From positions 1-33,362 of the forward strand of contig CAIWMU010000265.1 of the NCBI GenBank assembly GCA_903913865.1: 33,362 nucleotides of DNA, read 5' to 3'. A program made the translations under genes and the position numbers. This document shows positions 7,929 through 27,733 of this stretch, in pieces (the first letter of the stretch is position 1; every line of letters begins with the position of its first letter). The stretch comes from an uncultured Verrucomicrobia subdivision 3 bacterium (GTDB lineage Bacteria > Verrucomicrobiota > Verrucomicrobiia > Limisphaerales > UBA8199). Under the pieces are notes generated by a model. It was not told the origin of the DNA, searched no databases, and worked only from the letters and a program-made list of their open reading frames with translations.

Positions 7929-10900
7929 TCAAGGCATCTCTTCCATGCGGTAGAACGCCCGTGCTGATGGCGGCGCGGGGTCAGTGAATACATCCACCGT
8001 CGCTGTAGGGACCCGTGGACCATCCACGACGGCAGGGAACCCATGCCCGAAATCCAGAGCTCGGGTAAGGCGGTATCTCCGGCCAAGGTCGAATCCATCG
8101 CCTTGCACTTGGAATGTAGGTCCGCTGAACCCCAGCTGGCGAACCACCACCGGAAAGCCTGCTTGCCCTTTTAAGAAGCGAATCTCACTCAACCCCGTCA
8201 GGCTGCGTCCATCACCACCTCGCACAGTTCCGGTTCCGTCGAACACGGCCCCGTCGTGGCTGGTGCGGATGTTCAAACGGATGTAGCGAACACCTGGAAG
8301 GTTGACCGCGACGGTGTTGCCCAGGTAGTTGTTGGTTCCGGGCGCGAGGGCGAAGCGCACGGCTCCCGCGAAGGTGAAGTTCATACCATCCAAGCTTCCA
8401 TAAACATCCACGTTTTTCGGGCCGATTTTTGCGAGAGCCGACCCAAACGTGAGGAACCCAGCATTGTAACCCCATTCGCGAATCGCCCTCACATCGGAGA
8501 CTTCACCAAGGTCAAATGTGATGAAAGGAGCATAGTCAGTTCCCGGGCCAAGGCTGCCAACCGTAGTCCACACAATGCCGGATTCTCCTTCGGCATGAAT
8601 CGGGCCGAGGTTTCCCGATGCCAGACCACTACTATCCACCGTGTGGCGCGCTTCCCGGTCGAGCCCAAGCACGTTCTCGCTGGACACCGCAGCAACCGTG
8701 GTGGTCGTTGATGGTGCGACCGGGAATACATAATCCAAGACAATCACAGTGTCGATCGGATCGGTCATTCCGGCCGGCAGAAAGACCTGGCACCCGTCTG
8801 TATGTGATGTAAAGGTCAGGGACTGTGCCGGATTCGAGAGCAACCATGCACGCTTGATGGTTCCATAAAGTCCGGATGCCACGATGTTCCCATCCGCAGG
8901 CCGGTTGAAGACATGCATGTAGAGGCGGTTTTCGTTTCGCTTTGAGGTGTATTCTCCCCAGGAAGGCCGGGATCCGACCGGATTTCCCGTGGTCCCCTTC
9001 ACTGAGGCGCCATTCGTGGCCATCCATGCGCCAAGTCCGCCATATTGGAGGATTTGGTGCGGATGCAAGCTACCGTCCCCCTTTGGGCTGACGCTCAATT
9101 CGATTGTGCCGCCCTTGGATGCAACATCAACAACATCCCACACGAGGTTGGACGCGCTCTTGAACGGATAGTAATCCGGTCGGCCAAACCCCCAGGTCGG
9201 CGGCTGGTTTGCCGACATGATGGCCTCCCAATCCCTGTTGTATTGGTTGTAGCCGATGTTGTTCACGTTGGCCTCAGGTGTGGCGTAGTCGCCGTTTGTA
9301 TTGTTCAGGCCGTTCCACAGACGATTGTTGATGATGATGTTCGGATTAAACTGCCGCACCAGATGGACCAGTTTGGTCGCACCCCAAGACTCACCATTGA
9401 TACCGTCAGTGCTGTAGTCGAAATAGACCACGTCGAACGGACCGTAGTTCGTAATGATGCCGGGGTCCACAATCTCGCGAACCTGCTGGTGTAGATAGGA
9501 GACATAGTTTTGCCACACCTCCACATGCGAAGGAGGGTTACCAGCCTGGGGATGCGCCCACAGCGTCCCGGCATGCGGAAAATCGGGGTGATGCCAGTCA
9601 CCCAGAGAGAAATAGAACCCAACACGCAGCCCCTCGACCCGCAGGGCATCCACCAGTTCCTTCAGGAAGTCTCTACGACCCGGGTTCCTCGGGTTGTTGG
9701 CAATCTTGAAACCGTTGGTGGCCAACGCTGTGACCGTCCGGGTGTTCCAAATGGCGTAGCCATCATGGTGCCGTGGCATCACATAAACCATCTCCATGCC
9801 GGCAGCCTTGCACATACGAGCCATTTGGGCTGCATCGAAATTGGTGCCGGTAAGGTAGGGCTCGAGGGTATTCCGGTAGGTGAGAGTGTCCAGGCCCTGC
9901 CAAAATTGCATCCATTCGGCGTAGGTCCAGGAAGAGCCCCTGGCTCCGGTCTGCGGGGGCCAAACCCCTTCCGCCCCGGAATACAACCCCCAAACGATGG
10001 CTCCGAAGAGTTTGCCATGACGGAACCAAGCCATTCTGGCCTCCTTTTCCGCGATTGTCTCCGCGCGGGTGACAAACGACCACGTCGGGCTGGAAACCAC
10101 CCCCGAAGCCGTGAGCTTCTCCACGCGCCACCAGAAGCTCGATCCCTTCTGGATAACATTGGTCGGCGGTAGCCAATTCATCCGTTGGGAAACCGAAACA
10201 GGCACGGTGCTGCTATGGACAAGATAGTTGTAGCTTGCATTACCCACGCCGACAAGAACGCGGTATTCGCTCGCAGCCCCATCCCCGTTGTTCGCGTCCC
10301 AACTCAAGGAGGCATCCGATTCAACTTCCGTAGCGCCGTTTATCGGACCCGGGCTGCTGACTGCCTGGGCGGTTGGTGTCAGGGTGGCGGCCACGAACCT
10401 TACTTCGGATAGGCCGACCAGTGATCGCCCATCCGCCCCGCCCCGCTGCGCACCCGTTATGGAACTCCAAAAAACCGCCCCGTCCCAGTTTGTCAGGATC
10501 TGGAGTTTCACATAGCGAATTCCAGGGATGGCAGTGGCAAAATCCTGAGCGGGCTCGGCGGTCGTGCCACCTCCTGGAGTCAGGGTAAGATTGCCAAGGA
10601 CTGTATAATTACTGTTGTCCGCTGATGTGGATACACGGATGACTCTGGCACCGAATTTTGAAAAACCGGCTTCATTGTAGTTCCAAATCCGAATGGTTTG
10701 GAGATTAATCGTTCGCCCCAGATCATAGTAAAGCTGGGGATTGAAGTCATTTGGCGCCGCAGTGTTCCCCACTGAGGTCCACATGGCACCTTCGACTCCG
10801 TTGCCATGCTTTGAATCAGGGCCACCCAAAATGCCGGATGGTCCAGACGCAAGACCGGAGCCGTTGCATGTGTAAACCGCCTGCCGGTTGATTCCGTAGA

Positions 10901-11066
10901 GCCCCCCGTAGGGATTCTGGGAGGAATACGAAGTCAAGGTCGGCTGGATGAGGATTTGAGCCTGGGCAACCCCACTGAGCAGGCGGATAAAAATAACGAC
11001 ACATGAAACTGCAATCGCGGCTCTCAGCCTCCTGATTGGGCGGTGTGTCTGTGTGGTTGCTTTCAT
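7929..11066 (-). CDS. Divergent GH29-like secreted glycosidase with flanking discoidin modules
   Basis: A 1045-residue exported protein. I chose the ATG at 11066 because it begins directly with a signal peptide ending GVAQA-Q (about residue 36); the frame stays open to a GTG at 11102 but the extra 12 residues look spurious. Domains: F5/8 type C (discoidin)-like module (about 37-226), fibronectin/Ig-like linker (235-333), a GH29 alpha-L-fucosidase-like catalytic barrel (about 336-775), a second discoidin-like module (about 795-966) and a short C-terminal domain. GH29 landmarks kept are RHHDGY (432-437), SLGDWHHPDF (487-496), DVVYFD with the presumed nucleophile Asp550, and GDYATPE plus DWE. 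The fucose-binding His of the family motif FIHWG is replaced (GAIVWG, Val358), and the usual WFDG is YFDY. It is probably a cell-surface or secreted glycan hydrolase, but fucosidase activity should not be assumed. Confidence 0.87.
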   Translation of the reverse strand: MKATTQTHRPIRRLRAAIAVSCVVIFIRLLSGVAQAQILIQPTLTSYSSQNPYGGLYGINRQAVYTCNGSGLASGPSGILGGPDSKHGNGVEGAMWTSVGNTAAPNDFNPQLYYDLGRTINLQTIRIWNYNEAGFSKFGARVIRVSTSADNSNYTVLGNLTLTPGGGTTAEPAQDFATAIPGIRYVKLQILTNWDGAVFWSSITGAQRGGADGRSLVGLSEVRFVAATLTPTAQAVSSPGPINGATEVESDASLSWDANNGDGAASEYRVLVGVGNASYNYLVHSSTVPVSVSQRMNWLPPTNVIQKGSSFWWRVEKLTASGVVSSPTWSFVTRAETIAEKEARMAWFRHGKLFGAIVWGLYSGAEGVWPPQTGARGSSWTYAEWMQFWQGLDTLTYRNTLEPYLTGTNFDAAQMARMCKAAGMEMVYVMPRHHDGYAIWNTRTVTALATNGFKIANNPRNPGRRDFLKELVDALRVEGLRVGFYFSLGDWHHPDFPHAGTLWAHPQAGNPPSHVEVWQNYVSYLHQQVREIVDPGIITNYGPFDVVYFDYSTDGINGESWGATKLVHLVRQFNPNIIINNRLWNGLNNTNGDYATPEANVNNIGYNQYNRDWEAIMSANQPPTWGFGRPDYYPFKSASNLVWDVVDVASKGGTIELSVSPKGDGSLHPHQILQYGGLGAWMATNGASVKGTTGNPVGSRPSWGEYTSKRNENRLYMHVFNRPADGNIVASGLYGTIKRAWLLSNPAQSLTFTSHTDGCQVFLPAGMTDPIDTVIVLDYVFPVAPSTTTTVAAVSSENVLGLDREARHTVDSSGLASGNLGPIHAEGESGIVWTTVGSLGPGTDYAPFITFDLGEVSDVRAIREWGYNAGFLTFGSALAKIGPKNVDVYGSLDGMNFTFAGAVRFALAPGTNNYLGNTVAVNLPGVRYIRLNIRTSHDGAVFDGTGTVRGGDGRSLTGLSEIRFLKGQAGFPVVVRQLGFSGPTFQVQGDGFDLGRRYRLTRALDFGHGFPAVVDGPRVPTATVDVFTDPAPPSARAFYRMEEMP

Positions 11067-11288
11067 GGAATGACTTATACAGTGCCGGGTTATTTCAATC
11101 ACTTGAATTCGAGCACCTTGATGTCGCTAGCCCAGGCTGCGTCTGACCCCACCCAACCCCACCTTGAGCGGGGAGCCACAGACCAAATTCACCTCATTGA
11201 ATGGAGTCAACCTGAGGGGGATTGAGGCCACATCTGTTAAAATTCCGGATGGTTAAGGGATGAGCAACGGCAGAGGTGTGAGCCGATC

Positions 11289-12422: not shown

Positions 12423-14861
12423 TCAAGGCCAGACCACTGCGGCACGGTAGAACCGCAGCAGCCCATTGGTGGTTACCAGACCGTCCACCGCCGGCACCGC
12501 ATATGGTGAAGTCGGAAGAGCCGGAATATCGAGAGTCTGCCAACCCGTCAGGTCATTCAGGCTTTCACCAAACTGCAGCTGGTAGTGAAGTCCGGGGATG
12601 CCTTGAAGAGTGGTTGTCAAAAGAGCCGGGCGTGCCGGGTCAGCCACCACAAAGCGAACAGCCCCCAACGCCTGCTCGGCCCCTCCGTAACCGGATACCG
12701 GCTCAAGCCGAACATAACGAATGCCCGCGGCAGCAGTGGAAAAGTCCTGTGCGGGTTCGACAGAGGTTCCGCCAGCGATGACAAGAGTGTTGGTGCGAAC
12801 GATCGTGTAGTTGACATTGTCAGCGGACACCGAGACTCGCACATCCTTGGCTCCGGCACCTGCATAACCTGGCGAGTTGTAGTTCCAAATGCGGGTGATG
12901 AGCAGATCATGGGTGGCTCCAAGATCGAAAGTGACCGAAGGAGCAGCGTCACCAGGACTTCCACCCCATCCCACGGCTGCGTTGTTATGAGTGTCACTGT
13001 AGTAGCCAGGCCCAGTGATGCCCGCTCCACTTACAAGATTTGTAGCCAGTCGTGCGGCAATTTCGGATGAAAACGCACTGATGCTCGGCGTGATGAGTTG
13101 CCCCCCGCTCCTTGAGCTAATCCTGAGGCTGGGGGCCAAAACCACCTGAAGAAATGCTGGAACGCTGGAGAGACCTGCAACCGTGTTACTAACGATCACG
13201 GAATAGCTTCCTGCGTCACCTCCGGTAACACTGGACACAACCAGCGTGTCAGTAAGGGCCCCGGAGATATTTCCGCCGCTGACCAGAAACTGGCCGTTTT
13301 TCTGCCATCGATAGCTCAACGGGGGATGCCCGTTGGCCTCGGCCACAACGAAAAACGTAACTGACTCACCCGGCAGGTTCGTCGAACCAACTGGTTGTGT
13401 TGTGATGTTTGGCAGAGGCGTGGCAACGGCAGTGCCCTCGAATCGAACGGCGGAGAGGCCATTCCAGCCGCCTCCGTAACCGTCGAGAGGTTGAATCTTC
13501 ACATACCGGATGCTGGAAGCAATCGCCGGAAAGTCCTGCGCTGGCTCCGCTGTGGATCCCCCGGCTCGAGCCAGTGTGTTGGTTTCCAAAATGGTGAATG
13601 TCGCATTGTCCGCCGATACGGAAAGCCTGACGTTCTTGGCTCCGTTGGCAGTCCCGCTAGCTTGATTGAGATTCCAGTAACGCGCGATCAACAAGTTATA
13701 ATAGCCTCCAAGGTCAAAGGTGATAAATGGGTCTGTATCCCCGGGGCCATGGTGCCAGACTTCCTCCTCAGCACGACCATGTGTGTCAGTAAAGTATCCA
13801 GGACCTGACATCCCGGCACCGCTGACCAGATTGGCTGCCAACCGTTGAATACCACCACTATTATATTCCGAGGAAAGAGCATTGATGCTGGGAGTGATGA
13901 GACTTCCCCCAATAAAGAGGTGGGCCACCTGGCTAGTCACCGAGGTTTGTGAATTGGCGACCACGACGTCGTAATAACCCTGATCAGCAAGCGAGATGGC
14001 GTTGATCACAAGGTTGGAGCTGGTGGACCCTGTGATGCTACCAGCGTCGGTCAGAAATGTGCCGTTCTTGCGCCACCGGTAACTAAGCGGCGGAAGCCCG
14101 CTATCGCTGGCATTAACAGTGAAGGACGCAGAGGATGCGACCTGCAAAGTCTGGCTCTGAGGATGCTGCCAGATGACTGGCAGGGTGGTGGCCACCACAA
14201 ACCGCACTTCGGATAGCCCGGTCAGGTAACGCCCGTCGGCTCCGCCATGGTTGGTCCCTGTGAGTGAACTCCAGAAGATCGCCCCGTCAAAGTTGGAGAG
14301 AATCTGCATCCGAACATACCGGACGGAAGTTGCTGCCGTTGCGAAGTCCTGAGCGATGTCCGCCGGTCCGCCTCCCGCTTGCGCAACACTGAGAGCAGTC
14401 AGTTCGGTAAAGTTCGTGCCATCGACCGAGGTTGAGAGCAGGATGCTCTGCGCTCCAACAAAGGTGAAACCGGCTTCGTTGTAATTCCAGATCCGGGTCG
14501 TTTGAAGTTTTTGAATGGCACCTAGATCGAATGTTATGGAGGGATCCAAATCATTCGGAGATTGGGTGCTCCCGACAGTCATCCACATTCCTCCGTCAGG
14601 AGCGCTGCCGCCCGTTGAGTCGGCGGCGCCAATGACGCCGGATGGCCCCGCTGTCAACCCCGAGCCATTGACGGCATAAGACGCCGCACGATCGGTCCAG
14701 GGAGCATATGGGGTCTGGGATGAATAGGCTTTTACAGTTGGAGCAATCAAGAGTTGCGCCTGAGCGGTGAGCCCACACAGGAGCATGGCTGTTGAGATGC
14801 TTGTTGCGAGCAGCCTCGCGGTCAGCAACTTGGATTTTTGACCGAACAATCGATTTTTCAT
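12423..14861 (-). CDS. Secreted protein with three discoidin-like and two Ig-like domains
   Basis: An 812-residue exported protein with a signal peptide ending at LTAQA-Q (about residue 35). The architecture alternates: discoidin (F5/8 type C)-like module (39-223), Ig-like domain with WQHPQSQTL and YRWRKNG (228-317), discoidin-like (321-476), Ig-like with YRWQKNG (482-575), discoidin-like (588-740), then a short C-terminal domain (741-812) with the LHYQLQ...LTGWQTL pattern seen in Verrucomicrobiota secreted proteins. Each discoidin unit shows the same ladder: FDLG, a WNYN or WNLN turn, a VS(T/A)S(V/A)D strand, AQDF and IRYV. The first module closely matches the N-terminal module of the divergent GH29 protein. 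No catalytic domain is seen, so it is probably a carbohydrate-binding or adhesive surface protein serving the neighbouring glycosidases. No Shine-Dalgarno is evident before the ATG. Confidence 0.88.
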   Translation of the reverse strand: MKNRLFGQKSKLLTARLLATSISTAMLLCGLTAQAQLLIAPTVKAYSSQTPYAPWTDRAASYAVNGSGLTAGPSGVIGAADSTGGSAPDGGMWMTVGSTQSPNDLDPSITFDLGAIQKLQTTRIWNYNEAGFTFVGAQSILLSTSVDGTNFTELTALSVAQAGGGPADIAQDFATAATSVRYVRMQILSNFDGAIFWSSLTGTNHGGADGRYLTGLSEVRFVVATTLPVIWQHPQSQTLQVASSASFTVNASDSGLPPLSYRWRKNGTFLTDAGSITGSTSSNLVINAISLADQGYYDVVVANSQTSVTSQVAHLFIGGSLITPSINALSSEYNSGGIQRLAANLVSGAGMSGPGYFTDTHGRAEEEVWHHGPGDTDPFITFDLGGYYNLLIARYWNLNQASGTANGAKNVRLSVSADNATFTILETNTLARAGGSTAEPAQDFPAIASSIRYVKIQPLDGYGGGWNGLSAVRFEGTAVATPLPNITTQPVGSTNLPGESVTFFVVAEANGHPPLSYRWQKNGQFLVSGGNISGALTDTLVVSSVTGGDAGSYSVIVSNTVAGLSSVPAFLQVVLAPSLRISSRSGGQLITPSISAFSSEIAARLATNLVSGAGITGPGYYSDTHNNAAVGWGGSPGDAAPSVTFDLGATHDLLITRIWNYNSPGYAGAGAKDVRVSVSADNVNYTIVRTNTLVIAGGTSVEPAQDFSTAAAGIRYVRLEPVSGYGGAEQALGAVRFVVADPARPALLTTTLQGIPGLHYQLQFGESLNDLTGWQTLDIPALPTSPYAVPAVDGLVTTNGLLRFYRAAVVWP

Positions 14862-14960
14862 GGATTTATTGAACGTGGTTTGCTGGATTGCACTTAATAG
14901 GTTTGCTAGTTATATGGATTACGTGTGAAAGAGAGCATACGGAATAGATCTGGATGTAAA

Positions 14961-14979
14961 CACCCCCCGTTCGGGGGTG
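14961..14979. promoter_or_regulatory. 17-bp palindrome, copy 2 (operator or terminator candidate)
   Basis: The palindrome ACCCCCCGTTCGGGGGT (core 14962-14978) is identical to the copy at 16919-16935. It lies 100 bp upstream of the three-discoidin gene and 36 bp downstream of the stop of the GH29 fucosidase gene. On the minus strand a perfect TTGACA (14985-14990) lies just upstream of it, but no good -10 sits at normal spacing. A short TGTTT follows the hairpin on the minus strand, so a terminator for the fucosidase gene is an equally possible reading. Confidence 0.5.
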
Positions 14980-15014
14980 GTGCCTGTCAACACGCCTTTG
15001 GCGCACTCAGGGGG

Positions 15015-16862
15015 TCACTCGCCGAACAACTGAAATTCGGCGATTACGGGCTCACCGTCGGGCATGCCGGCAGGTTTGTCCACCGTGACCGTCAACCTGA
15101 ACCGTCGCGCCTTCACCGGCTCGAAAACCACCTGTTTCTGGGCACCGATACTTGTACCGGTGGCAACGGGCTTCCATTGTCCATCAATTTCCGATTGCAC
15201 CGAGAACTTGCGGCACCTCTTGAACTCAGAACCTTCGCTCACCAACACCCGGCTTACGGAGCGCTCCTCACCAAGGTCAATCTGCGCCCATCCTTCACGA
15301 GAGTTTTCCGGCCCGGCCCAAATCGTGTCGGTCTTTCCATCGTTGACATGTTCTTTTTTCAAAGTGTCCCGGCCTTGCCACTCAGCGGAGACCGTCACCG
15401 GCATTCCTTGCGAAATGGGCGCAGGCGGTGCGATTACGGCTGCCGGGCCTTCGATGTCCACGACCACAACGCTGGCGATGGGATCCGGGGGGACTGCTGG
15501 CAGTGATAATTCCACGCCCCGCTTGCTGCTGACTGCGACGAGTGCCTCCCGTGGATTAGATAACAAGTAGACCCGGCTGACCTTGTTTGTGACCGGCACG
15601 AGCAGTTTGCCGCTCTTGGGCCAGGCAAATACCTGCAGATAAAGCTTTCCCGGCTTCTGAGTGCATCGACCATCGAACGGCAGCACCTCGAACGGGCTGG
15701 CGGTGGTGCCGTGGATCGACTCCTTGTTGATCTTCATCCACGCAGCGAATTTTTCCAGACATCGGCGGGCTTGCGGCAGGATCTCACCCTCGGCAGTCGG
15801 GCCAATATTGAGCAGCATGTTGCCCCCCTTGCTGGTGACGTCGATCAATTGATGCAACAGATCCTCGAATGAACGGAAGCCCACCAGCCGATTGTAACCC
15901 CAATTGTTCGGTAATTGCATGGTCTGACAGGTTTCCCAATCAATCCCAGGTAAACCCGTTGGGGGGACCTCGCCTTCGGGTGAAATATAGTCACCGGCGA
16001 AAACGTAGCCATAGGAGTTCGCAACGCCGAACCCGAGCTTGGGTTGCGGCGGCACATAGCCGGAACGGTTGTCAAGGATGACGCTGGGTTGGAGCGACCG
16101 TGTATAATCCTCGAGTTCCTTCCCATCCTGAGAAGTCCATGCTTCCCGGTCCCAGGTGCCATCGAACCATACCATCCCGATCGAACCATAGTTGGAAAAG
16201 AGCTCCTTTAGCTGGCCGTACAAGTATGCCTTGAAAAGGGCCTTGTCGGGTGTTCCCTTCGCATAATCGTTGAACTGCGGACGTTTCGGCCAGTCGGGAT
16301 GATGCCAATCCATGACAGAATGATAAATGCAGAACCGAACACCTTCCTCCCGGCAGGCCGCGGCCAACGGTTTGAGCAGATCCTTGCCCCCGGGGGTGAT
16401 CTTGATATTCCAATCGTTATTCATCTTCGTCGGCCAAAGACAAAATCCATCATGATGTTTCGTCGTGATACAGATATACTTCACTCCGGCGGCCTTCATC
16501 AGGCGCACCCATTCGCGTGCATTGAATTTCGTCGGATTCCACGTCTTGACCAGTGAACTATATTGGGAACTTGGGATGCCAAGGTATTGTTGAATCCATT
16601 CCGCCCCGCCTGTGACTGTCTGCCCCTGCCATTCGCCTGCAAGTTGCGAATACAGCCCCCAGTGAATGAACATTCCGAACTTGGCATCGCGAAACCACTG
16701 CATCCGGGCATCCTGCTCAGCTTTAGTCTCGTGGAGGGACGGCGGATCATCCACTGCCGCTGCCGCTGCAAAACTTACCCCCGCGCCGACCATGGTGAAG
16801 GCGATAATCAGACTTTTGAGGAACAAGCCACTGTTCGTTCTTGTTTTTCTTCTAATGCTCAT
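15015..16862 (-). CDS. GH29 alpha-L-fucosidase with C-terminal discoidin domain
   Basis: A 615-residue exported enzyme expected to release terminal alpha-L-fucose from glycans by a retaining mechanism. A signal peptide (about residues 1-36, ending FAAAAA) precedes a full GH29 barrel: KFGMFIHWGLYS (61-72) with the fucose-binding His67, TKHHDGF (134-140), YHSVMDWHHPDW (180-191), GMVWFDG (229-235) with the presumed nucleophile Asp234, and a GDYISPE...DWE segment (290-310) in the region that carries the acid/base in many members. SKGGNMLLNIGP (344-355) is the usual barrel end. Residues about 480-615 form a discoidin-like domain (VNDGKTDTIW, QIDLGEE) probably binding carbohydrate. The gene lies downstream of the two-component pair and upstream of the three-discoidin gene. 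No Shine-Dalgarno is evident; a palindrome with a possible -10 lies just upstream. Confidence 0.95.
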   Translation of the reverse strand: MSIRRKTRTNSGLFLKSLIIAFTMVGAGVSFAAAAAVDDPPSLHETKAEQDARMQWFRDAKFGMFIHWGLYSQLAGEWQGQTVTGGAEWIQQYLGIPSSQYSSLVKTWNPTKFNAREWVRLMKAAGVKYICITTKHHDGFCLWPTKMNNDWNIKITPGGKDLLKPLAAACREEGVRFCIYHSVMDWHHPDWPKRPQFNDYAKGTPDKALFKAYLYGQLKELFSNYGSIGMVWFDGTWDREAWTSQDGKELEDYTRSLQPSVILDNRSGYVPPQPKLGFGVANSYGYVFAGDYISPEGEVPPTGLPGIDWETCQTMQLPNNWGYNRLVGFRSFEDLLHQLIDVTSKGGNMLLNIGPTAEGEILPQARRCLEKFAAWMKINKESIHGTTASPFEVLPFDGRCTQKPGKLYLQVFAWPKSGKLLVPVTNKVSRVYLLSNPREALVAVSSKRGVELSLPAVPPDPIASVVVVDIEGPAAVIAPPAPISQGMPVTVSAEWQGRDTLKKEHVNDGKTDTIWAGPENSREGWAQIDLGEERSVSRVLVSEGSEFKRCRKFSVQSEIDGQWKPVATGTSIGAQKQVVFEPVKARRFRLTVTVDKPAGMPDGEPVIAEFQLFGE

Positions 16863-16913
16863 GAAATTGTGTCATTCGATGCTTTCGATGAGTTTCCTGT
16901 GCTTCAGAGAAAT

Positions 16914-16944
16914 AGTATACCCCCCGTTCGGGGGTAATGGCCAA
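16914..16944 (-). promoter_or_regulatory. Candidate promoter of the GH29 fucosidase gene
   Basis: On the minus strand TTGGCC (16944-16939) and TATACT (16919-16914) are separated by 19 bp, and the palindrome at 16919-16935 fills most of the spacer. The -10 matches the sigma-70 consensus at five of six positions; the -35 matches at four. It lies about 50 bp before the ATG at 16862. An operator inside a long spacer would suit control by DNA distortion or occlusion. This is inference from motif match only. Confidence 0.3.
16918..16936. promoter_or_regulatory. 17-bp palindrome, copy 1 (operator candidate)
   Basis: TACCCCCCGTTCGGGGGTA has seven-base arms around a five-base centre and shares its 17-bp core with the copy at 14962-14978. 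It lies 56 bp upstream of the fucosidase ATG. TACCCC/GGGGTA arms loosely recall the heptamer half-sites of NarL-type regulators, and a NarL/LuxR-type response regulator is encoded next door, but the spacing differs from known NarL sites, so this link is speculative. Confidence 0.5.
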
Positions 16945-17468
16945 CGCTGCGACGAGACCTGAATTCAACCGTGAGAGTGAACAGGACGGGCTGGCCGCAA
17001 CGTGGGATTCCAGGCGTGCCAGCTGGACCCCGACGAGAATTGGGGCATGTGTCGCCTTTGAGATCACCCTCCAGCCCTGCTGGCATGATCGACTCGTGCC
17101 CAATTCCCTTACGTCGTTAATATTGTGTACCCACGTTCGCAGTTACGTGAAGGCTCTCTTGGAGGACACCGCCCAGGGTGTGGCCGTTGGAAGTTTGCAT
17201 CTCCACCTGATGCTTGACCGCATCTTACGGGTGGGGACGTCGCACGGAGACTGAAGCCCGTATCCAGGATTTTTGGCGCAACCGGAACTAGAATAGAATC
17301 CTCATTGAATGCTCCCTTTTGATCCAACGAGAGTGAGGCAGGCAACATGCCAGAGGATCTGCAGGCGGCTGATAGGCTTAAACCGCTCATCACATCGGGC
17401 TGCCGCCTCGCTCCGCTTCTGCTCGAAGCCGTGGAACATGCGGTCCGCGACAACCGACCGTCGACCCG
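16937..17468. other. Intergenic stretch without a supported gene
   Basis: About 530 bp between the response-regulator stop and the palindrome upstream of the fucosidase gene. Open frames exist on both strands (for example 17109-17453 minus and 16937-17254 plus), but their translations are low in hydrophobic core patterns, match no family I recognise and have no ribosome binding site. Only short GC-rich inverted repeats are visible, such as the CCCC/GGGG pair around 17030-17045. It could hold decayed coding sequence or a long leader for the fucosidase gene. Confidence 0.5.
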
Positions 17469-18104
17469 CTACTGGGGCTTGCTCCCGAAGTACTTCATGG
17501 CGGCCTCAGTCCGTGACCGGACATGGAGCTTTTCGTAGATGTGCTTCAAATACCCGCGGACCGTATCCTCTGTAAGGCCCAACATCCCTGCAATTTCCTT
17601 GTTGATGTAACCTCTGGCCACCAGTGCAATGACCTCCTTCTCGCGCACCGACAAGGCTACGGCGGGGGTTTGCGGGGTCGGCTTTTTCGAAAAGGACTGC
17701 ACCACCTGCCTTGCGATGTAGCTCGACATCGGTGCCCCTCCACGATGCACATCTTCGATGGCCCGCAAAATCTCAGGAGCAGGGGTTCGCTTGAGCAGGT
17801 AGCCGCTGGCTCCCCTTTCCAACGCCTCAAAAATCTGCTTCCTGTCGTCATACACCGTCAACATGACAATCAGCAACTCAGGCAGAACCTGTTTGAGGAG
17901 GTATGTGCACTCGACGCCCGACATCATCCCAAGATTGATGTCCATGAGGACCACCTCCGGAGGTTGCCTCGGGATCTCCCGCAGTGCCTGCTCCCCAGAG
18001 CTGTATGCTCCAACACATTGAAACCCCTGGGTCTCGCTGATCAGGGATGCAAGTTCCTGTCGCACAGATCGTTCGTTCTCTACGATGGCTACTCGGATGG
18101 ACAT
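17469..18104 (-). CDS. NarL/LuxR-type response regulator
   Basis: A 211-residue cytoplasmic DNA-binding regulator. The receiver domain (about 3-120) has Glu9 in the acidic pocket, the phospho-acceptor Asp55 in VVLMDINLG, Thr83 and Lys105. The LuxR-type helix-turn-helix (about 148-208) reads LSVREKEVIALVARGYINKEIA followed by LGLTEDTVRGYLKHIYEKL. The start overlaps the last 16 bases of the histidine kinase gene, so the two are translationally linked and almost certainly cognate. The second position of the acidic pocket is Asn10 rather than Asp or Glu, a mild deviation. The pair lies directly upstream of the fucosidase/discoidin locus, which makes those genes likely targets (inference). Confidence 0.95.
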   Translation of the reverse strand: MSIRVAIVENERSVRQELASLISETQGFQCVGAYSSGEQALREIPRQPPEVVLMDINLGMMSGVECTYLLKQVLPELLIVMLTVYDDRKQIFEALERGASGYLLKRTPAPEILRAIEDVHRGGAPMSSYIARQVVQSFSKKPTPQTPAVALSVREKEVIALVARGYINKEIAGMLGLTEDTVRGYLKHIYEKLHVRSRTEAAMKYFGSKPQ

Positions 18105-21100
18105 GGTAAGATTTTGTCTTGATGGAGTGGCGCAAACAACTTCACGCGGGTGCCTTGTCCCGGCTCGCTCGCCAACTCGAACCGCCCACCCACCTCCTTC
18201 ATGCGCTGGCGGATGTTGCGCAAACCGTCACTGCCCTCCACAGAAGTGCCTGGGACAAAGCCCCGACCGTTATCTTCGATGGCAACGCACATCTCTGAGT
18301 CGCTCACAACCAACCGCAACCACACCTCCCCTGCGCCGGAGTGGCGGGCTACGTTATTGCAGGCTTCCTTCACTGCCAGAAGGATATGGTGCCGCTGCTG
18401 GGTCCCAAGCGAAATCTGGGGGACTTCCGTGGGTACGTCCAGCCTGCAACGGATAGGCGTGAGGCGGAAGAAATCCTCAGCAAATTGTACCAGATAATTG
18501 GCTAGATTATCCAGCGTGTCATTCTGAGGATTGATCGCCCACACAATCCCGTCCACCGTTTGCACAGCAGATCGAGCTCGCTGTGATATCCTATCCAGGT
18601 CCTCTCCAACCTGTTCAGTCCGGTCGCGATGCGCATGGGCCCGATCGCTTATCAACGAAATCCCCGTGAGAAGTGTTCCCAGTTCGTCATGAATGTCCCG
18701 CGCGATTCGCATTCGCTCCTGCTCCAGCGCGTGTTCTTGTTGGATGACCGCCAACCGTCGTGTGAGCCTCCGCGTAGCCAGCAGCTTGACCCCCCAACCA
18801 CCCAGCCCCAACACCAGAAGGACCGACAGCAGACGGAACCAACCCGTCTGCCAAAAGGAGGGTAGGCACGTCAACACCAGCACCGCCTCCTGATCGCTCC
18901 TCACAAGGTCCTCGTTGCACGCAGTCACCCGGAACCGGTAGCGACCAGGAGGAAGGTGGGGATACTCGGCAATGCGTCGCCCTCCAGCCTCCACCCAGTC
19001 CGAGTCCAACGCGTCCAATTTGTAACGAAACCTGACCTTCTCAGGGGTGGTGAAACTTAGCGCGGAGTAGCGGAACTCCACCCGCCCCGCCCCGGGGCCA
19101 ATCGCCAACTCGGCTGTGTGCTTATCATTCGCCTTGGGCTCCAGAATCCGGATCACTGATTTCTGTGATTGCGGCACAGGGTTGTTCACATCAGCCGCCA
19201 CCACGTTGCCATCCACCTGCAACTCATCCATTACCACAACCGGGGCCACTGCATTGACTGGAATGTGCCTTGGATCAACGATCACCACCCCTTTTGCCGT
19301 GGAAAACCACATTCGGCCATCCCGTGTCCTCAGGCCCGCCGGACAAAAGCCGCCCGTACATTCCACACTTTCCATCCCTTCAGCCTTGCCATACACGACA
19401 GGTGTCAGCATCCCCAAGTCTCCATCGGCCACCCCATCGAGTTCTTCTTTGGAAACACGGAAGATCCCCCCATTGGAGCCAAACCAAAGGCGGCCGTCGT
19501 CATCCTCAAGAATTTGGGAGATAGTGTCGTTCCACAACCCTTGCCTGGTGGTGATCGACGTTATTCTGCCATTCTTCATCAGGCTCAGACCTCCATTCAT
19601 CCCGATCCACAATCGCCCCTCCTTGTCGGCGTAGAGCGCCCGGACGAAATCACCGGCCAGCCCATTCTGCGCCGTCCAGTGGGTGGTCTGGCCATTGAAC
19701 CAGCAGCTTAGGCCATCGCCCCCGGTGCCAATCCACAACCGGCCCTGGGTGTCGAGCGTCAGCGCGGTGATGTAGCCCGACTGCACCCCGTTTGTGCTTC
19801 GATAGGAGGTAAAGACCCCATCCTTGAACAACTTCAACCCATCCTGGTATGTGCCGACCCAAAGGCCGCCTCCAAGTGCCTCGCACAATGCCAGCACCGG
19901 CTCGTTATTTTCAGGATGCGCCAGGCTAAATTGTTCCAGCTTGGCCCCGCTTTTCCGGAACAGTCCACCATTCCAACTACCCAGCCAGAGCACCCCATCC
20001 CGTGCGGCGAGGACCGATGGAAGACTTTCATTGTCAAGCAGATAGCTCAGATCCGTCGAGCCGAATTCCATATCCAACCCCGAATCCGAAGTGAGCATTC
20101 CTTCGTGCTTCTCCCGAGACTCCACCACTCCTGCGTCCGAGTGGGTCGTCGTTACGTGCCGGTGCCCCATGCTCAGTCCTCCGCCGTTGGAACCGATCCA
20201 TACATTGCCATCACTGTCCTCAGCCATGGACATGATGGCATTGTGGGTCAAGCCCTCCCCGGTGGTCACGAGACGGACCCGCTTCGGCTTGAGTCGGTGC
20301 AGTCCTCCAGCGCTGGTTCCAATCCAAAGGTTTCCTTCGCGATCCTCCACCAGGCAGCGAATGGAGTTGTCTGCCAGTCCCTCCTGCATGGTCAACGAGA
20401 GTTCCTCACCCTTGCGCCAGCGCCTCAACCCCGTCGAGGCCATGCCCAGCCAGAGATCACCGTTCCGTGTTTCGCATACGTCCAGTATTGTATCCGAGGA
20501 GGCTTTGGCCTGTTGTGGAACGCGGGTCAGCACTCCGTTGGTGGCTGTGTTGAGGCGCCCACTTAAGCCGCCGAACCACAATCGCCCCGTCGGTCCACGA
20601 CGCAAGGTGGCGGTCGCGAACTCGCTGGCCGGCTCCATGTTGGGGTTCTCTCGCAGATACTGACGCCCCTTTACCTGGTGCAGAAAGCCGTTGATCACCA
20701 CCCATAATCCGTCCCCGTCACTCAGGACTCGTGAAAACGGCTCACTGCGGCGGGGTGGCATGCTCCCGTCGCGCACAAAATGTCCGTCCCTCCAGCAATC
20801 CAATCCCGCATAGGTTCCAATCCAAAGCCGGTCTTCGGCATCCTGCGCCAGCGCCATTACCACATCACTCCACAACCCGTCCCGCTGGGTCACGGCATGG
20901 AACCGTCCACCCTCGAACCGTAACACCCCCCCTCCATCCGTGCCCACCCAAAGTGTGCCTGACCGGTCCTCAAAGAGGCATAAAACGCTGCTGCTGCGGA
21001 CCCCTTCACGCTCTCCAAACCGGGTGAAGCGCATGCCGTCGAAGCGCGCCAACCCCGCCGAAGTTCCAACCCAGAGGTAACCATCCCGCGTTTGCAATAG

Positions 21101-21886
21101 TGCCGTCACCTCATTGCCCGGCAGACCGTCCTCCGCTTGCCACCGGTCCAGCCTGTATTCTGACCATGGCTCACGCCTGCCCGAAGGCAGGGTGGTGCTG
21201 ATCGGGGCGAAGCGAAGCAAAGCCTGTCGAAACCCGGGACCGTAACCGGCAAAGATCCCGCCAGCAGGCAATGGCCGCCGGTCTGCAGAAGATGTTACGA
21301 TGTTCCAATCGTTACCGTTCTCAGAAACCTCAACGCGATAGTCTGTCGCCAGACGATCAACCAGGTACCCCTCACGGTCACGCCCCCAAACCACGCGGTT
21401 GATCCGCATCGCCTCGGGCAGCTCGATCTGCACCCAGACGTTGCTGAGACCCTCGGCGATCCAGGAATGATTGTTTCCATACCGCCCATCGCTCACCCAT
21501 CGCACCTGGTGGATCTCATAACCCGCCAAAGCACCGGAGGCGGTTGGCTTACTCCCGTTGCTTGCCAGTGCCACGTTTCGCGTTGGCTCACCCTCGGGAT
21601 AAATCTCCAATTCGTCCAAACACGGCTCGCGAACATTGGTCTTGAATACCCGGAACCGGACAAACCTCGCAGACACAGCTGCAAAATCCTCAACGTTCCG
21701 TCGGGGATGTACCGGCGGTCGGAGGTGTGCCGCAGCTTGGTTGGACATTTCGATCGAAGCCTGCACCTCGTTCGACTGTTCTTGAGCAGGGCACGGTGAA
21801 CCAATCGCCAACTCAACTGCACACCAGCACAGGAAGGCTTTGGCACGGAACCGATGCAAGGACCGGATCATGTCGTAAACCACCAT
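18089..21886 (-). CDS. Sensor histidine kinase: discoidin domain, two-component propeller, Y_Y_Y, HisKA_3, HATPase
   Basis: A 1265-residue membrane sensor. After a signal-like hydrophobic segment (about 10-33) comes a discoidin-like domain (about 70-225, with LDELEIYPEG, VSDGRYGNNHSW and WVQIELPEA), then a long set of two-component-regulator propeller repeats (about 245-870; recurrent GxLWVGT or GRLWIGT), a Y_Y_Y domain (about 935-1000), one transmembrane helix (about 1014-1036), a HisKA_3 dimerisation domain with His1066 in ARDIHDELG, and a HATPase domain with N-box EACNNVARH (1174-1182) and DNGRGF (1205-1210). The large outer part probably senses a carbohydrate in the periplasm and the kinase phosphorylates the overlapping response regulator. 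Both ATG 21886 and ATG 21871 are possible starts; the latter gives a tidier signal sequence. Unlike Bacteroidota hybrid sensors it lacks a fused receiver and DNA-binding domain. Confidence 0.93.
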   Translation of the reverse strand: MVVYDMIRSLHRFRAKAFLCWCAVELAIGSPCPAQEQSNEVQASIEMSNQAAAHLRPPVHPRRNVEDFAAVSARFVRFRVFKTNVREPCLDELEIYPEGEPTRNVALASNGSKPTASGALAGYEIHQVRWVSDGRYGNNHSWIAEGLSNVWVQIELPEAMRINRVVWGRDREGYLVDRLATDYRVEVSENGNDWNIVTSSADRRPLPAGGIFAGYGPGFRQALLRFAPISTTLPSGRREPWSEYRLDRWQAEDGLPGNEVTALLQTRDGYLWVGTSAGLARFDGMRFTRFGEREGVRSSSVLCLFEDRSGTLWVGTDGGGVLRFEGGRFHAVTQRDGLWSDVVMALAQDAEDRLWIGTYAGLDCWRDGHFVRDGSMPPRRSEPFSRVLSDGDGLWVVINGFLHQVKGRQYLRENPNMEPASEFATATLRRGPTGRLWFGGLSGRLNTATNGVLTRVPQQAKASSDTILDVCETRNGDLWLGMASTGLRRWRKGEELSLTMQEGLADNSIRCLVEDREGNLWIGTSAGGLHRLKPKRVRLVTTGEGLTHNAIMSMAEDSDGNVWIGSNGGGLSMGHRHVTTTHSDAGVVESREKHEGMLTSDSGLDMEFGSTDLSYLLDNESLPSVLAARDGVLWLGSWNGGLFRKSGAKLEQFSLAHPENNEPVLALCEALGGGLWVGTYQDGLKLFKDGVFTSYRSTNGVQSGYITALTLDTQGRLWIGTGGDGLSCWFNGQTTHWTAQNGLAGDFVRALYADKEGRLWIGMNGGLSLMKNGRITSITTRQGLWNDTISQILEDDDGRLWFGSNGGIFRVSKEELDGVADGDLGMLTPVVYGKAEGMESVECTGGFCPAGLRTRDGRMWFSTAKGVVIVDPRHIPVNAVAPVVVMDELQVDGNVVAADVNNPVPQSQKSVIRILEPKANDKHTAELAIGPGAGRVEFRYSALSFTTPEKVRFRYKLDALDSDWVEAGGRRIAEYPHLPPGRYRFRVTACNEDLVRSDQEAVLVLTCLPSFWQTGWFRLLSVLLVLGLGGWGVKLLATRRLTRRLAVIQQEHALEQERMRIARDIHDELGTLLTGISLISDRAHAHRDRTEQVGEDLDRISQRARSAVQTVDGIVWAINPQNDTLDNLANYLVQFAEDFFRLTPIRCRLDVPTEVPQISLGTQQRHHILLAVKEACNNVARHSGAGEVWLRLVVSDSEMCVAIEDNGRGFVPGTSVEGSDGLRNIRQRMKEVGGRFELASEPGQGTRVKLFAPLHQDKILPCPSE

Positions 21887-23750: not shown

Positions 23751-25316
23751 TCACTCTTCAGCGTTCGCCAATGCGCCGGTGGGGCAGGCCTCCACAACCT
23801 TGCTGCCGCTCTTTTCCAAACCTTCCTCCAGCGATTTACCAAGTGAGATGGCCGCCTTCACCTCGAAACCACGACCCACAAAGGTGAAACCAAACTTTTC
23901 CCCGTCCTTGCTGGTGACCCGCACGCAAAGGCCGCACTTCACACACTTCCCCGGCTCGAAGAGCACGCCGGTGCCACCGTTCATCTGCACGTAGGTCGCT
24001 CGCTGCTCCCCCTTGTAGGCTGATTGCACGGCACCATACTGGTCGCTGTAAGTCCGTAGATCGCAGTCGTGGTTGGCCCGGCAGTCGCAGTGCATGCATC
24101 GCCCGGTTTCCAATACGGCAGCCTCCTTCGCGAAGGACACGTGGCCCGCATCGGCTGAGCGGACGCGCGGAATGGGTGAAGCGTGGCTCGCAAACTCCTT
24201 CAACTCCTCCGGCTGCAGGCGGCCCATCATGTGGTTATACATCTCGTAAATGCCCACAATCTGTTTCCCGTTGAGCCTCTGGCTGATGCATGTGGCCATC
24301 GCCTTGGCCTGCTGCACCGTCCTCAGGATCGGCGTGTCCCGCTTCACCGCATTTCCGGCGGAGAACACGCCGTCAATTTTGGTTTGCGAGGTGCCGGCAT
24401 CAGCGATGATGCCCTTGGCAGTCCCCGGCACGCCCAGCAGTTCGAGGTCCTCCACCGGCACCGCACCGCAGGCTACAACCACTGCGGAGAACTGCCGGCG
24501 AAGGTCCGCCATGGAAATGTCCGAACCGGCCTTTATTCCGGTGCGGATTTCGACGCCCAGCCGGTTCAAAAGCCGCAACTCCCCCTCGACCACCCAATCA
24601 GGCAGCACTTCGGTCCCATTTTCATCACGCAACCGTGGCAACACCCGTGGCTGCCGTTCAAACACAACGGACGAGTGGCCCATCAACGCAAGATAATAGG
24701 CGGTGGACAAACCCGTCATACCGGCACCGATGATGGCGACACGTTTTCCGGATGAAGGTGCGCACGGCGGCACATACGGCTCCGCGTTCTGTAGATCCCA
24801 CTCGGCGGCATGGCGCATCAGGGCGCGGATGGAAACGCTCTCATCCACAAGTCCGCGGCGGCACCCTTTTTCGCAAGGTGCGTTGCAGAACCGCTCCAGA
24901 ACGGCCGGCAGTGCCATGTCACTCCGCAGGTGCGCCACCGCAGTGCCCATTTGCCCCGCCATGATGTCACGGATGATCTGCGGCACCTCGTTGTGCACGC
25001 CGCACAACCGCTGGCATGGTGCCTCGCAATCCCCCAGGTGGTCGCTCAGCAACAGTTCCAGAGTGGATTTCCGGAAGGCGCGGATCTCGTCGTTCTGGGT
25101 TTCGACCACCATGCCGTCGGCGGCACGGGCTGAGCAGGCCGGCACGTTCTTCCCAGCCTTCGTGTCCTTCACCATGCACATCATGCAGGAGGTGAAGTGG
25201 TCATAGCCTTCGCGATAGCAGAGCGCCGGGACCTCAATCCCGATGCGGCGTGCCGCCTCCATCAGGGAGATGCCCTCTTCGCACTCGATTTCCTTGTTGT
25301 CTATGGTCAGCTTCAC
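23751..25316 (-). CDS. [2Fe-2S]/FAD/[4Fe-4S] oxidoreductase subunit related to NuoG N-terminus and GltD
   Basis: A 521-residue cytoplasmic protein starting at GTG 25316, which overlaps the stop of the NuoE-F gene (GTGA). Order: plant-type [2Fe-2S] domain with C33, C44, C47, C61; a GltD-type N-terminal iron-sulfur region (C97, C101, C105 and C144, C148, C152); an FAD Rossmann fold with GAGMTGLSTAYYL (197-209) and Glu220; AVVVACG (278-284); the FAD-closing DGVFSAGN (315-322); a CMHCDC...C cluster motif (407-418); and C458, C461, C464 plus a late C511P for another [4Fe-4S] cluster. In GltD and NfnB a second Rossmann domain for NADPH lies between the ATG-type motif and the FAD-closing motif; here only about 30 residues separate them, so that domain is missing. 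It probably passes electrons between the NuoE-F protein and the membrane subunit. Confidence 0.9.
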   Translation of the reverse strand: MKLTIDNKEIECEEGISLMEAARRIGIEVPALCYREGYDHFTSCMMCMVKDTKAGKNVPACSARAADGMVVETQNDEIRAFRKSTLELLLSDHLGDCEAPCQRLCGVHNEVPQIIRDIMAGQMGTAVAHLRSDMALPAVLERFCNAPCEKGCRRGLVDESVSIRALMRHAAEWDLQNAEPYVPPCAPSSGKRVAIIGAGMTGLSTAYYLALMGHSSVVFERQPRVLPRLRDENGTEVLPDWVVEGELRLLNRLGVEIRTGIKAGSDISMADLRRQFSAVVVACGAVPVEDLELLGVPGTAKGIIADAGTSQTKIDGVFSAGNAVKRDTPILRTVQQAKAMATCISQRLNGKQIVGIYEMYNHMMGRLQPEELKEFASHASPIPRVRSADAGHVSFAKEAAVLETGRCMHCDCRANHDCDLRTYSDQYGAVQSAYKGEQRATYVQMNGGTGVLFEPGKCVKCGLCVRVTSKDGEKFGFTFVGRGFEVKAAISLGKSLEEGLEKSGSKVVEACPTGALANAEE

Positions 25317-27733
25317 ATCGGGATCTTTTCAATGGCGTTTACCGGGCATACTTGCAGGCAGATGTCGCACCGGGTGCAGGTGGATTCCTCGATCACGTGA
25401 TGGTGATAGGGATTCATCGGAATGGAATCGGTCGGGCACATCTGTGAGCAGCGTGTGCAGCCAAAACAGGTGTCGGTGATAAAATACTGCACAAGGTTTT
25501 TGCACCTGCGGGCGGGGCATTTGCCCTGAACGTGGGCCTCATATTCGGCGCGATAATAGCGCAGGCTGGAAAGGACCGGATTGGGGGCCGTTTTTCCCAG
25601 TCCACACAGGCTGCCTTCAATCGTGATGGTGGACAGGGTCTCCAGCAGTTCGAGATCGCCCTTCCGCCCCTTGCCGCAGCACAGGCGGTCGAGCACTTCC
25701 TTCATCCGCTTGGTGCCGATGCGGCAGTGAGTGCACTTTCCGCACGATTCGTCCTGGGTGAAGGAGAGAAAGTAGCGGGCGATATCGACGATGCAATCTG
25801 TGTCATCCAACACCACCATGCCGCCGGAACCGATGATGGCACCCACGGATTTGAGCGCCTCGTAGTCCACAGGCGTATGGGCCAGATGCGCCGGCACACA
25901 ACCGCCCGAAGGCCCACCCATTAGCACCGCCTTGAGCTTGCGTCCTTCAGGCACGCCGCCCCCAATGTCATTCACGATCTCGTTGATCGTCATCCCCATG
26001 GGCACTTCAATGAGGCCGCCCCGGCGCACTTTTCCCGCCAGCGCAAAGGTCTTGGTGCCCTTGCTCTTTTCAGTGCCATAAGCGGCAAATGCCTTGGCAC
26101 CATTGCGGATGATCCATGGAATCGAGGCGAACGTCTCGACGTTATTGATGCAGGTAGGCTTGCCCCAGAGGCCTGATTGCGCAGGAAAAGGGGGACGAAA
26201 CCGCGGCATGCCACGGCCCCCTTCAATCGCCGACATGAGCGCTGTTTCCTCACCGCAAACAAATGCGCCGGCGCCTTCAACCACTTTTAACTTCAACTTG
26301 AACCCCGTGCCCATGATGTTTTCACCGAGCAACCCGCGCTCCTCGCAGACCCGGATCGCTTCCCGGATCCGCTTGGTCGCCAGGGGATACTCCGCCCGGA
26401 TATAGAGGAAGCCCTCATGCGCGCCGACTGCGAAGGCGGCGATCACCATGCCCTCCAAAACGCGGTAGGGAAACGATTCGAGAATCATCCGGTCCATGAA
26501 CGCTCCCGGATCGCCCTCATCCCCATTGCAGATAACGTATTTGACGTCGTTGGGCGTCGCCCGCGTCATCTCCCATTTCATGCCAGTGGGGAAGCCGGCG
26601 CCGCCCCGACCGCGCAGTCCGCTTGACTTCACTTCAGCGATCACATCCTCGAACTTCCGCTGCTTGAGGACCGATTCCAACGCCTTGAATCCGTCATGCT
26701 GGATGTAGTCGTCTATGCTGCGCGGATCGAGCGTTCCGGCATGCTCGGTAACTAAGCGCACCTGGGCACCCGTGTAAGCCTTCTCAACTCCGTGCCTTAC
26801 ATCCTGCGAGTAACGGGTCGGGGGAACCCACGATTCATCGGTGAAAAACGTCTCCAGGGTGTGGAAGAGGCGGGCACCGGCGCGCTTCCACCAGGAGATG
26901 GGCCGGAAATGGCGCAACAACAGATCCCGCACATCCACGGGATCGACCTTGCCATAACGATAGCGGTTGTCGTTGTAGAGATGAAACTCCACAAGCGGGA
27001 TGTCGTAGGATATCCCCGTGCAGCCCACGTCTTTGACTTTCACCGGGATGTCCAGCTTCTCCGACTGGCGCATCACTTCGTCATAGACCTTGCGGGAACC
27101 ACCCGCGACACAGCTGGAACAAAGGCAGATGCGCACTTCGCCGACGGTATCGCGGGCGGACAGTTTACCGCCGTTGGCGTCGGCACTCACCCGGGTTTTT
27201 TCCGAGGCCCGGAAATCCTCGATCAGGTCTGGCACCTTCCAGGTCTCGATTTGGCCATAGATGACATCGTCGATTTGGGCCACCGGTGCCAGCATGCAGC
27301 AACCAAGGCAGGCGACCTCCTCCACCGTGAATTCCCCTTCCCCATCCGTGTGCTCCCCCGGCTTGATCTTCAGGTGCTGCCGGAACGTGTCATGGAGGAT
27401 GTTGGCCCCGCTGACATGGCAGGCCGTGCCCGTGCAGGTCCTGATAACGTGCTTGCCCACCGGGTGATGTCGGAACTGGGAGTAAAAGGTTGAAACCCCA
27501 TCGACAACATCGGGAGTGATATCAGTGATCTGGCAGAGCCGTTCCAGCGCGGGCTTTGGCAGGTAGTTGTAGTGCTTCTGCATGGCCTGCAGCAGCGGGA
27601 TGAGGTCCTCCGGGCGCCGCCCGATGGACGCCACGATTGCCTCAACCGGTGCAAGGTCGAGTTCCGCCGGGCTTCTCGAACTCGTCTTGCCCCCGCAACC
27701 GCCGCTGCATGTGCTGGCACCGCTCTCACTCAT
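25313..27733 (-). CDS. NuoE-NuoF fusion, NADH-oxidising flavin/iron-sulfur subunit
   Basis: An 806-residue cytoplasmic protein. Residues about 25-175 are a NuoE-like thioredoxin-fold [2Fe-2S] domain (C100, C105, C142, C146). A second thioredoxin-like [2Fe-2S] domain follows (C203/C205/C208, C238), as in HydB-type subunits. The NuoF core contains the FMN/NADH motifs GLRGRGGAGFPTGMKW (372-387) and EGAGAFVCGEETAL (486-499), and the N3-type cluster ligands C664, C667, C670 and C710. The C-terminus adds two [4Fe-4S] clusters (C756, C759, C762, C766; C786, C789, C792, C796). It should oxidise NADH (or reduce NAD+) and deliver electrons to the adjacent flavoprotein. Separate NuoE and NuoF genes are more usual, so the fusion is notable. 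Starts and stops overlap both neighbours by four bases. The N-terminal CSGGC (9-13) is an unexplained extra cysteine motif. Confidence 0.95.
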   Translation of the reverse strand: MSESGASTCSGGCGGKTSSRSPAELDLAPVEAIVASIGRRPEDLIPLLQAMQKHYNYLPKPALERLCQITDITPDVVDGVSTFYSQFRHHPVGKHVIRTCTGTACHVSGANILHDTFRQHLKIKPGEHTDGEGEFTVEEVACLGCCMLAPVAQIDDVIYGQIETWKVPDLIEDFRASEKTRVSADANGGKLSARDTVGEVRICLCSSCVAGGSRKVYDEVMRQSEKLDIPVKVKDVGCTGISYDIPLVEFHLYNDNRYRYGKVDPVDVRDLLLRHFRPISWWKRAGARLFHTLETFFTDESWVPPTRYSQDVRHGVEKAYTGAQVRLVTEHAGTLDPRSIDDYIQHDGFKALESVLKQRKFEDVIAEVKSSGLRGRGGAGFPTGMKWEMTRATPNDVKYVICNGDEGDPGAFMDRMILESFPYRVLEGMVIAAFAVGAHEGFLYIRAEYPLATKRIREAIRVCEERGLLGENIMGTGFKLKLKVVEGAGAFVCGEETALMSAIEGGRGMPRFRPPFPAQSGLWGKPTCINNVETFASIPWIIRNGAKAFAAYGTEKSKGTKTFALAGKVRRGGLIEVPMGMTINEIVNDIGGGVPEGRKLKAVLMGGPSGGCVPAHLAHTPVDYEALKSVGAIIGSGGMVVLDDTDCIVDIARYFLSFTQDESCGKCTHCRIGTKRMKEVLDRLCCGKGRKGDLELLETLSTITIEGSLCGLGKTAPNPVLSSLRYYRAEYEAHVQGKCPARRCKNLVQYFITDTCFGCTRCSQMCPTDSIPMNPYHHHVIEESTCTRCDICLQVCPVNAIEKIPM

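Follow-up and report, generated by a model that had tools for sequence, protein, structure and literature searches.

The window (the whole 33,362-nt stretch analysed) was called as 17 genes, all 17 of them on the minus strand. An alpha-L-fucosidase gene is followed downstream by the gene of a protein rich in discoidin domains, and upstream of it lie the genes of a NarL/FixJ-type response regulator and of a sensor kinase (Table 1). The end of the kinase gene overlaps the regulator gene by 16 nt, and a gap of 606 nt separates the regulator gene from the fucosidase gene. Two small reading frames inside this gap had no Pfam match, and a search of the window with Rfam at gathering scores returned 0 matches. 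The 211-aa regulator matched NCBIfam NarL-like models below the model cut-offs, and the 812-aa protein gave partial matches only, both at other loci of this genome and in 13 further genomes. Elsewhere in the window, a second fucosidase of 1057 aa (7929-11102) adjoins a 1973-aa protein with cadherin, PA14 and passenger-associated-transport repeats (1805-7726). An 806-aa protein with thioredoxin-like [2Fe-2S], Nuo51 FMN-binding and 4Fe-4S domains (25313-27733) is adjoined by a 521-aa iron-sulphur/flavin oxidoreductase (23751-25316), in a run that includes PQQ-propeller and ferredoxin-type genes; the pair presumably resembles the electron-input subunits of NAD-linked hydrogenases or dehydrogenases.

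Table 1. Features of the fucosidase locus, in window coordinates.
Feature	Position	Strand	Description
812-aa protein	12423..14861	-	Three F5/8 type C and two immunoglobulin-like stretches (Pfam); downstream of copy 2
Copy 2	14961..14979	-	19-bp palindrome/hairpin CACCCCC-GAACG-GGGGGTG, 7-bp stem, then TTTACATCCA on the gene strand
Alpha-L-fucosidase, 615 aa	15015..16862	-	With F5/8 type C (discoidin) domain; Pfam Alpha_L_fucos E 1e-87, F5_F8_type_C E 7.9e-14
Weak promoter-like pair around copy 1	16914..16944	-	TTGGCC 16944-16939, TATACT 16919-16914, 19 nt apart
Copy 1	16918..16936	-	19-bp palindrome/hairpin TACCCCC-GAACG-GGGGGTA, 7-bp stem, then TACTATTTCT on the gene strand
NarL/FixJ-type response regulator, 211 aa	17469..18104	-	Pfam Response_reg and GerE
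Sensor kinase	18089..21886	-	Reg_prop propeller, Y_Y_Y, HisKA_3, HATPase_c (Pfam, reading frames)

The fucosidase gene is bracketed by two copies of a 17-bp palindrome, ACCCCCCGTTCGGGGGT, which an earlier note on this DNA had reported as identical. Both copies were located exactly, at 16919-16935 (copy 1) and 14962-14978 (copy 2), and the distances given there to the next start codons are correct, with 56 nt between copy 1 and the ATG at 16862 and 100 nt between copy 2 and the ATG at 14861. The stem is longer than first described: it spans 19 bp, and its outermost pair, T-A in copy 1 and C-G in copy 2, is compensated between the copies and paired in both. Identity between the copies is 17/17 and extends to the 5-nt centre. 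Copy 2 starts 36 nt past the fucosidase stop codon when measured from the 17-mer and 35 nt past it when measured from the 19-bp stem, and copy 1 lies 532 nt beyond the stop of the regulator gene, its 19-bp stem ending 55 nt ahead of the fucosidase start codon. Homology beyond the palindrome is absent in alignments of the flanks over 12-40 nt on each side (shuffle p 0.36 to 0.98), and this limitation of the identity to the palindrome favours an operator or the duplication of a short unit. Scanning the window for the 17-mer with up to 3 mismatches gave no third site. The GGTGCCTGTCAACAC stretch beside copy 2 matched 19 places at up to 2 mismatches, versus 12 for its control, and was found in exact form only in the window.

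The rarity of such a pair was assessed in a 703-kb sample of 38 stretches of this genome (40 fetched, 4 shorter than 4 kb dropped, and the window and L150 added). When intergenic regions lying within 5 kb of each other were compared in direct and inverted orientation, the longest exact word shared by neighbours was 12 or less in all of the 508 pairs bar two, the exceptions being the palindrome pair (17) and, on another contig, a repeat of 48 bp; at uniform composition, about 0.003 matches of 17 bases are expected in a comparison of this size. Dinucleotide shuffles of the window yielded a mean of 0.27 matches at up to 3 mismatches and reached two matches in 3 of 100 cases, a test that is weak because the word is rich in C and G. 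Among 466 exact repeats of at least 14 bases separated by 0.2-6 kb (123 loci, 1.5 Mb, relatives included), 12 hold a stem of at least 5 pairs with at least 4 G-C, and the longest stem of these 12 is that of the palindrome pair. Over the whole genome the 17-mer occurs twice in exact form and at no place with 1-2 mismatches; the 36 places found at up to 3 mismatches consist of the 2 exact copies and 34 sites at exactly 3, with 27 for the reversed control. Searches of 320 genomes of the order and of 288 drawn from the phylum, each set counting the genome itself, returned the exact word from no further genome, and 0 viral contigs contained it. The outcome that the earlier note had set against an operator, many genome copies at gene 3' ends, was not observed, and exactly two copies leave room for a private operator with two sites. 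Chance likeness of two C/G-rich hairpins could appeal to the low complexity of the word and to the 3 shuffles that gave two matches at up to 3 mismatches. Set against these are the length of the exact word shared by adjacent gaps, compared with the limit of 12 in other pairs (the 48-bp repeat aside), and the absence of that word from the other genomes in the two sets searched. On these sequence comparisons a chance origin is unlikely, and we assign it a very slight probability.

When one mismatch was allowed, a match appeared in 1 of 57 relatives, G001, which is the nearest genome and carries a kinship label of the same genus. This match was not accepted as an orthologous site, since it lies inside a 653-aa open reading frame and blastn at E 1e-3 aligns none of the surrounding DNA to the window. 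A genome-wide hairpin family was likewise discarded, the pattern C5-N3-6-G5 giving 79 matches per strand (overlaps counted repeatedly) versus 66 for the reversed control, which is no clear excess. Since there are only two copies in the genome and no exact one in the other genomes searched, the palindrome is neither a dispersed repeat nor the standard terminator sequence of this genome. REP-type elements are short palindromic repeats, intergenic and GC-rich, and the pair resembles them in being a short intergenic GC palindrome present more than once; it differs in having just two copies, confined to a single genome among those searched, and these occupy adjacent gaps instead of forming the many dispersed copies of a REP or MITE family.

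Folding of the gene-strand RNA produced a 7-bp stem with a 5-nt loop in both copies, that is, a stable GC-rich hairpin on the coding strand of the kind expected of terminators, with -13.7 kcal/mol over 41 nt for copy 1 (z -1.66) and -19.3 kcal/mol over 46 nt for copy 2 (z -2.16). Over 102-118 nt the z-scores approach nothing (-0.49 and -1.19, respectively), and the stems also fold on the opposite strand (-12.4 kcal/mol for copy 1, -16.4 kcal/mol for copy 2). The T-tail scores of 1.72 (copy 1) and 2.60 (copy 2) compare with a sample maximum of 4.7, and neither tail is a clean U-tract. A scan for terminator-like sites found 4 versus 3.1 expected in 14500-17500 and 1 versus 0.5 expected in 16850-17500, so that its matches are no commoner than in shuffles; it called copy 1 and passed over copy 2. 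The pair thus shares with Rho-independent terminators the GC-rich 7-pair stem, the 5-nt loop, the T-rich gene-strand tail and, in copy 2, the place just past a stop codon, and differs from them in the broken T-runs of the tails, in the distance of copy 1 from its upstream gene and in the existence of two identical copies.

To place these hairpins among others, gaps of 40-900 nt in the 703-kb sample, between genes called by a hexamer script, were surveyed for perfect stems of at least 6 pairs with at least 5 G-C. Tandem gaps contained 37 hairpins, both copies included, versus 11.5 in shuffles; convergent gaps contained 19 versus 3.7, and divergent gaps 19 versus 5.7, a threefold excess. The corresponding densities per kb were 1.19 (tandem), 2.86 (convergent) and 1.16 (divergent). 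The excess in divergent gaps implies that hairpins here also serve, or arise from, something besides termination. Within tandem gaps, 17 of the 37 hairpins, copy 2 among them, lie no more than 50 nt from the upstream stop. For the 61 hairpins located up to 180 nt past stop codons, a set that includes copy 2 and in which a hairpin between convergent genes may count for both, the sense-side tail scored at least 1.5 in 24/61 and at least 2.5 in 16/61, and the antisense side reached these values in 11/61 and 6/61. On contig C106, a further C5/G5 hairpin, ATCCCCCATTCGGGGGAT, is located 31 nt past a stop and has no T-tail (score 0.20).

The promoter context of the two copies was also examined. The earlier note had copy 1 filling the 19-nt spacer between TTGGCC and TATACT; 16 of its 17 bases do lie inside, but the last one is already the first T of TATACT. 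A consensus scan at this place gave TGGCCA/18/TATACT, with 9/12 consensus bases, and promoter-like sites numbered 1 versus 0.4 expected in 16850-17500 and 1 versus 1.8 expected in 14500-17500. The TTGACA reported ahead of copy 2 is present at 14990-14985, 6 nt before the copy, and is followed by no usable -10 at spacers of 16-19 nt (GGGGGG, GGGGGT, GGGGTG, GGGTGT). The palindrome therefore has no consistent place relative to a promoter, copy 1 sitting in a weak spacer and copy 2 being without a -10. MerR-type promoters carry a palindrome within a 19-bp spacer, which copy 1 recalls by nearly filling its 19-nt spacer; here, unlike in those promoters, the -35 is weak and copy 2 is without a -10, and the 17 window reading frames scanned contain no MerR domain. 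Copy 1 also resembles the type 2 operators of CsoR/RcnR/FrmR (DUF156) regulators, such as that of Streptomyces lividans copZA1, in its TAC/GTA ends around C- and G-tracts (PMC3902906). The spacing described in that source is TAC-X9-GTA, whereas copy 1 reads TAC-X13-GTA and copy 2 has CAC/GTG ends. In a PF02583 (DUF156) search, the genome, which is 95% complete, gave no match at E 0.001, and a control search found the family in 6 of 14 known genomes. Taking the operator as that source describes it, a CsoR/FrmR-type site was rejected on the spacing, the ends of copy 2 and the missing PF02583 match.

Conservation of the locus was evaluated in relatives of the fucosidase. The 21 relatives examined were the paralogue on contig C88 and the first 20 of 80 fetched; in a search covering roughly 400 nt ahead of the open frame and 300 nt behind it, 0 of 21 had a C5/G5 palindrome. 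The nearest of these relatives are 68-74% identical, and none was found with the same neighbours. The closest of them (L069, 74% identical; L070, the G001 locus, 68-70%; the C88 paralogue, 70%) differ from the window in both upstream and downstream sequence. Kinase matches outside the window, among those listed, were 34-52% identical and in many cases partial. A fucosidase match and a regulator match (E 1e-20) occurred together in none of the fetched loci compared, whose flanks span only 1.5-5 kb; at L069, a 136-aa partial kinase match adjoins the fucosidase.

The interpretation we prefer, while holding it at somewhat less than even confidence, is that the palindromes are RNA hairpins marking transcript boundaries on both sides of the fucosidase gene, one having arisen as a copy of the other. 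From the hairpin-forming sequence, the moderately T-rich gene-strand tails, the place of copy 2 near a stop, the uniqueness of the word in the genomes searched and its unrelated flanks, we infer that copy 2 may terminate or protect the fucosidase mRNA at its 3' end and limit read-through into the 812-aa gene, that copy 1, across the long gap from the regulator gene, could do the same for transcripts arriving from upstream, and that the identity of the copies would reflect recent copying of one from the other as a short unit. An outer pair that has changed and is still paired is what a selected stem would allow, although a single such pair may be due to chance, and the T-rich tails, the location of copy 2 and the stop-proximal hairpins of this genome point in the same direction. 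Hairpin terminators had been the rival reading in the earlier note, and that proposal suits copy 2 well and copy 1 in part, but leaves the identity of the copies unexplained: terminators need pairing and not identity, so the identity presupposes that one was copied from the other, and no mechanism for this was found. Against boundary hairpins also stand the site of copy 1, so far past one stop and so close to a start, which is unusual for a terminator; the tails, well short of the U-tracts of the best terminators in the genome; the terminator scan, with matches at the expected level and copy 2 missed; the abundance of hairpins in divergent gaps; stems that fold on either strand; z-scores that are modest at best and fade over the longer intervals; and the tail-less C5/G5 hairpin on C106. 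If boundary hairpins are what the palindromes are, they illustrate how one fucosidase-like gene out of many in a bacterium is insulated, an ordinary finding.

A different account, doubtful but to be taken seriously, is a private operator, in which the palindrome, as 17-19 bp of double-stranded DNA, would be bound by a regulator that governs both the fucosidase gene and the gene of the 812-aa three-discoidin protein, the candidates for binding being the adjacent NarL-type regulator or an unlinked one. Complete identity through the 5-nt centre between unrelated flanks would suit such a role, as would the presence of exactly two genome copies, both upstream of neighbouring genes in the same orientation, and the overlap of copy 1 with the sole promoter-like site that the scan gives in its gap. 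Since regulators of local scope can have as few as one or two sites, the present results are compatible with this account. It is opposed by the absence of the palindrome before the kinase/regulator operon and from the rest of the window, by the lack of graded sites (no place at 1-2 mismatches, and those at 3 to be compared with the reversed control), by the missing -10 at copy 2 and a promoter layout not common to both copies, and by the 21 fucosidase relatives examined, which have no such palindrome nearby. The NarL heptamers known from E. coli are unlike runs of C and G, and tying the palindrome to the response regulator next to it is at present guesswork that no result supports. Were the operator real, it would offer a first handle on the control of glycan genes by such two-component systems in this group. 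Much less probable is a one-gene cassette, in which the fucosidase gene would be flanked on either side by a direct copy of a recombination core or of a long target duplication and could be excised so as to leave one copy behind. The direct orientation and sharp boundaries of the copies, the identical asymmetric centre that strand exchange would need, the single gene between the repeats and the dissimilar flanks of the closest fucosidase relatives are in keeping with this; yet Pfam detected no integrase or transposase domain in the 17 reading frames of the window that were scanned, any pair of tandem gaps has a gene between them, and with an 812-aa neighbour matched only partially elsewhere there is no empty site for comparison. 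The more specific version, equally improbable, has a palindromic recombination core, a fucosidase gained or lost as a unit and site-specific recombination that another part of the genome would provide; glycan enzymes moving as single-gene cassettes would be a real surprise. No more credible than chance likeness is descent from a multi-copy insertion element with a similar end hairpin, CCCCCC-GAACA-GGGGGG. The loop letters of that element end, found near contig ends, are similar, but the window copies have neither the outer sequence of the element, GCCCGACTTTCGCACCCC, nor its inner sequence, arms and loop differ, and the element hairpins enter the mismatch search only at 3 mismatches.

The comparisons also brought up repeats elsewhere in the genome. 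The multi-copy element, which looks like an insertion element whose hairpin is subterminal, has an end that reads TA(G/A)CCCGA(C/T)TTTCGCACCCCACCCCC, then a short loop (TGGACA, GAACA or GGACA types), then GGGGG(G); its ends were found on the G000 contigs C2, C44, C161, C173, C179, C197, C205 and C209 (L019-L025, L223), 61 to 383 bases from the contig end and thus close to assembly breaks. The 48-bp repeat is an exact direct repeat on G000:C10 (L179), in the neighbouring intergenic gaps 198-960 and 2652-2837. On G000:C4 (L173), a single intergenic region (8841-9448) contains two similar, non-identical C5/G5 hairpins, GGCACCCCCTCGGGGGTGCC and GCACCCCCGGCAGGGGGTGC.
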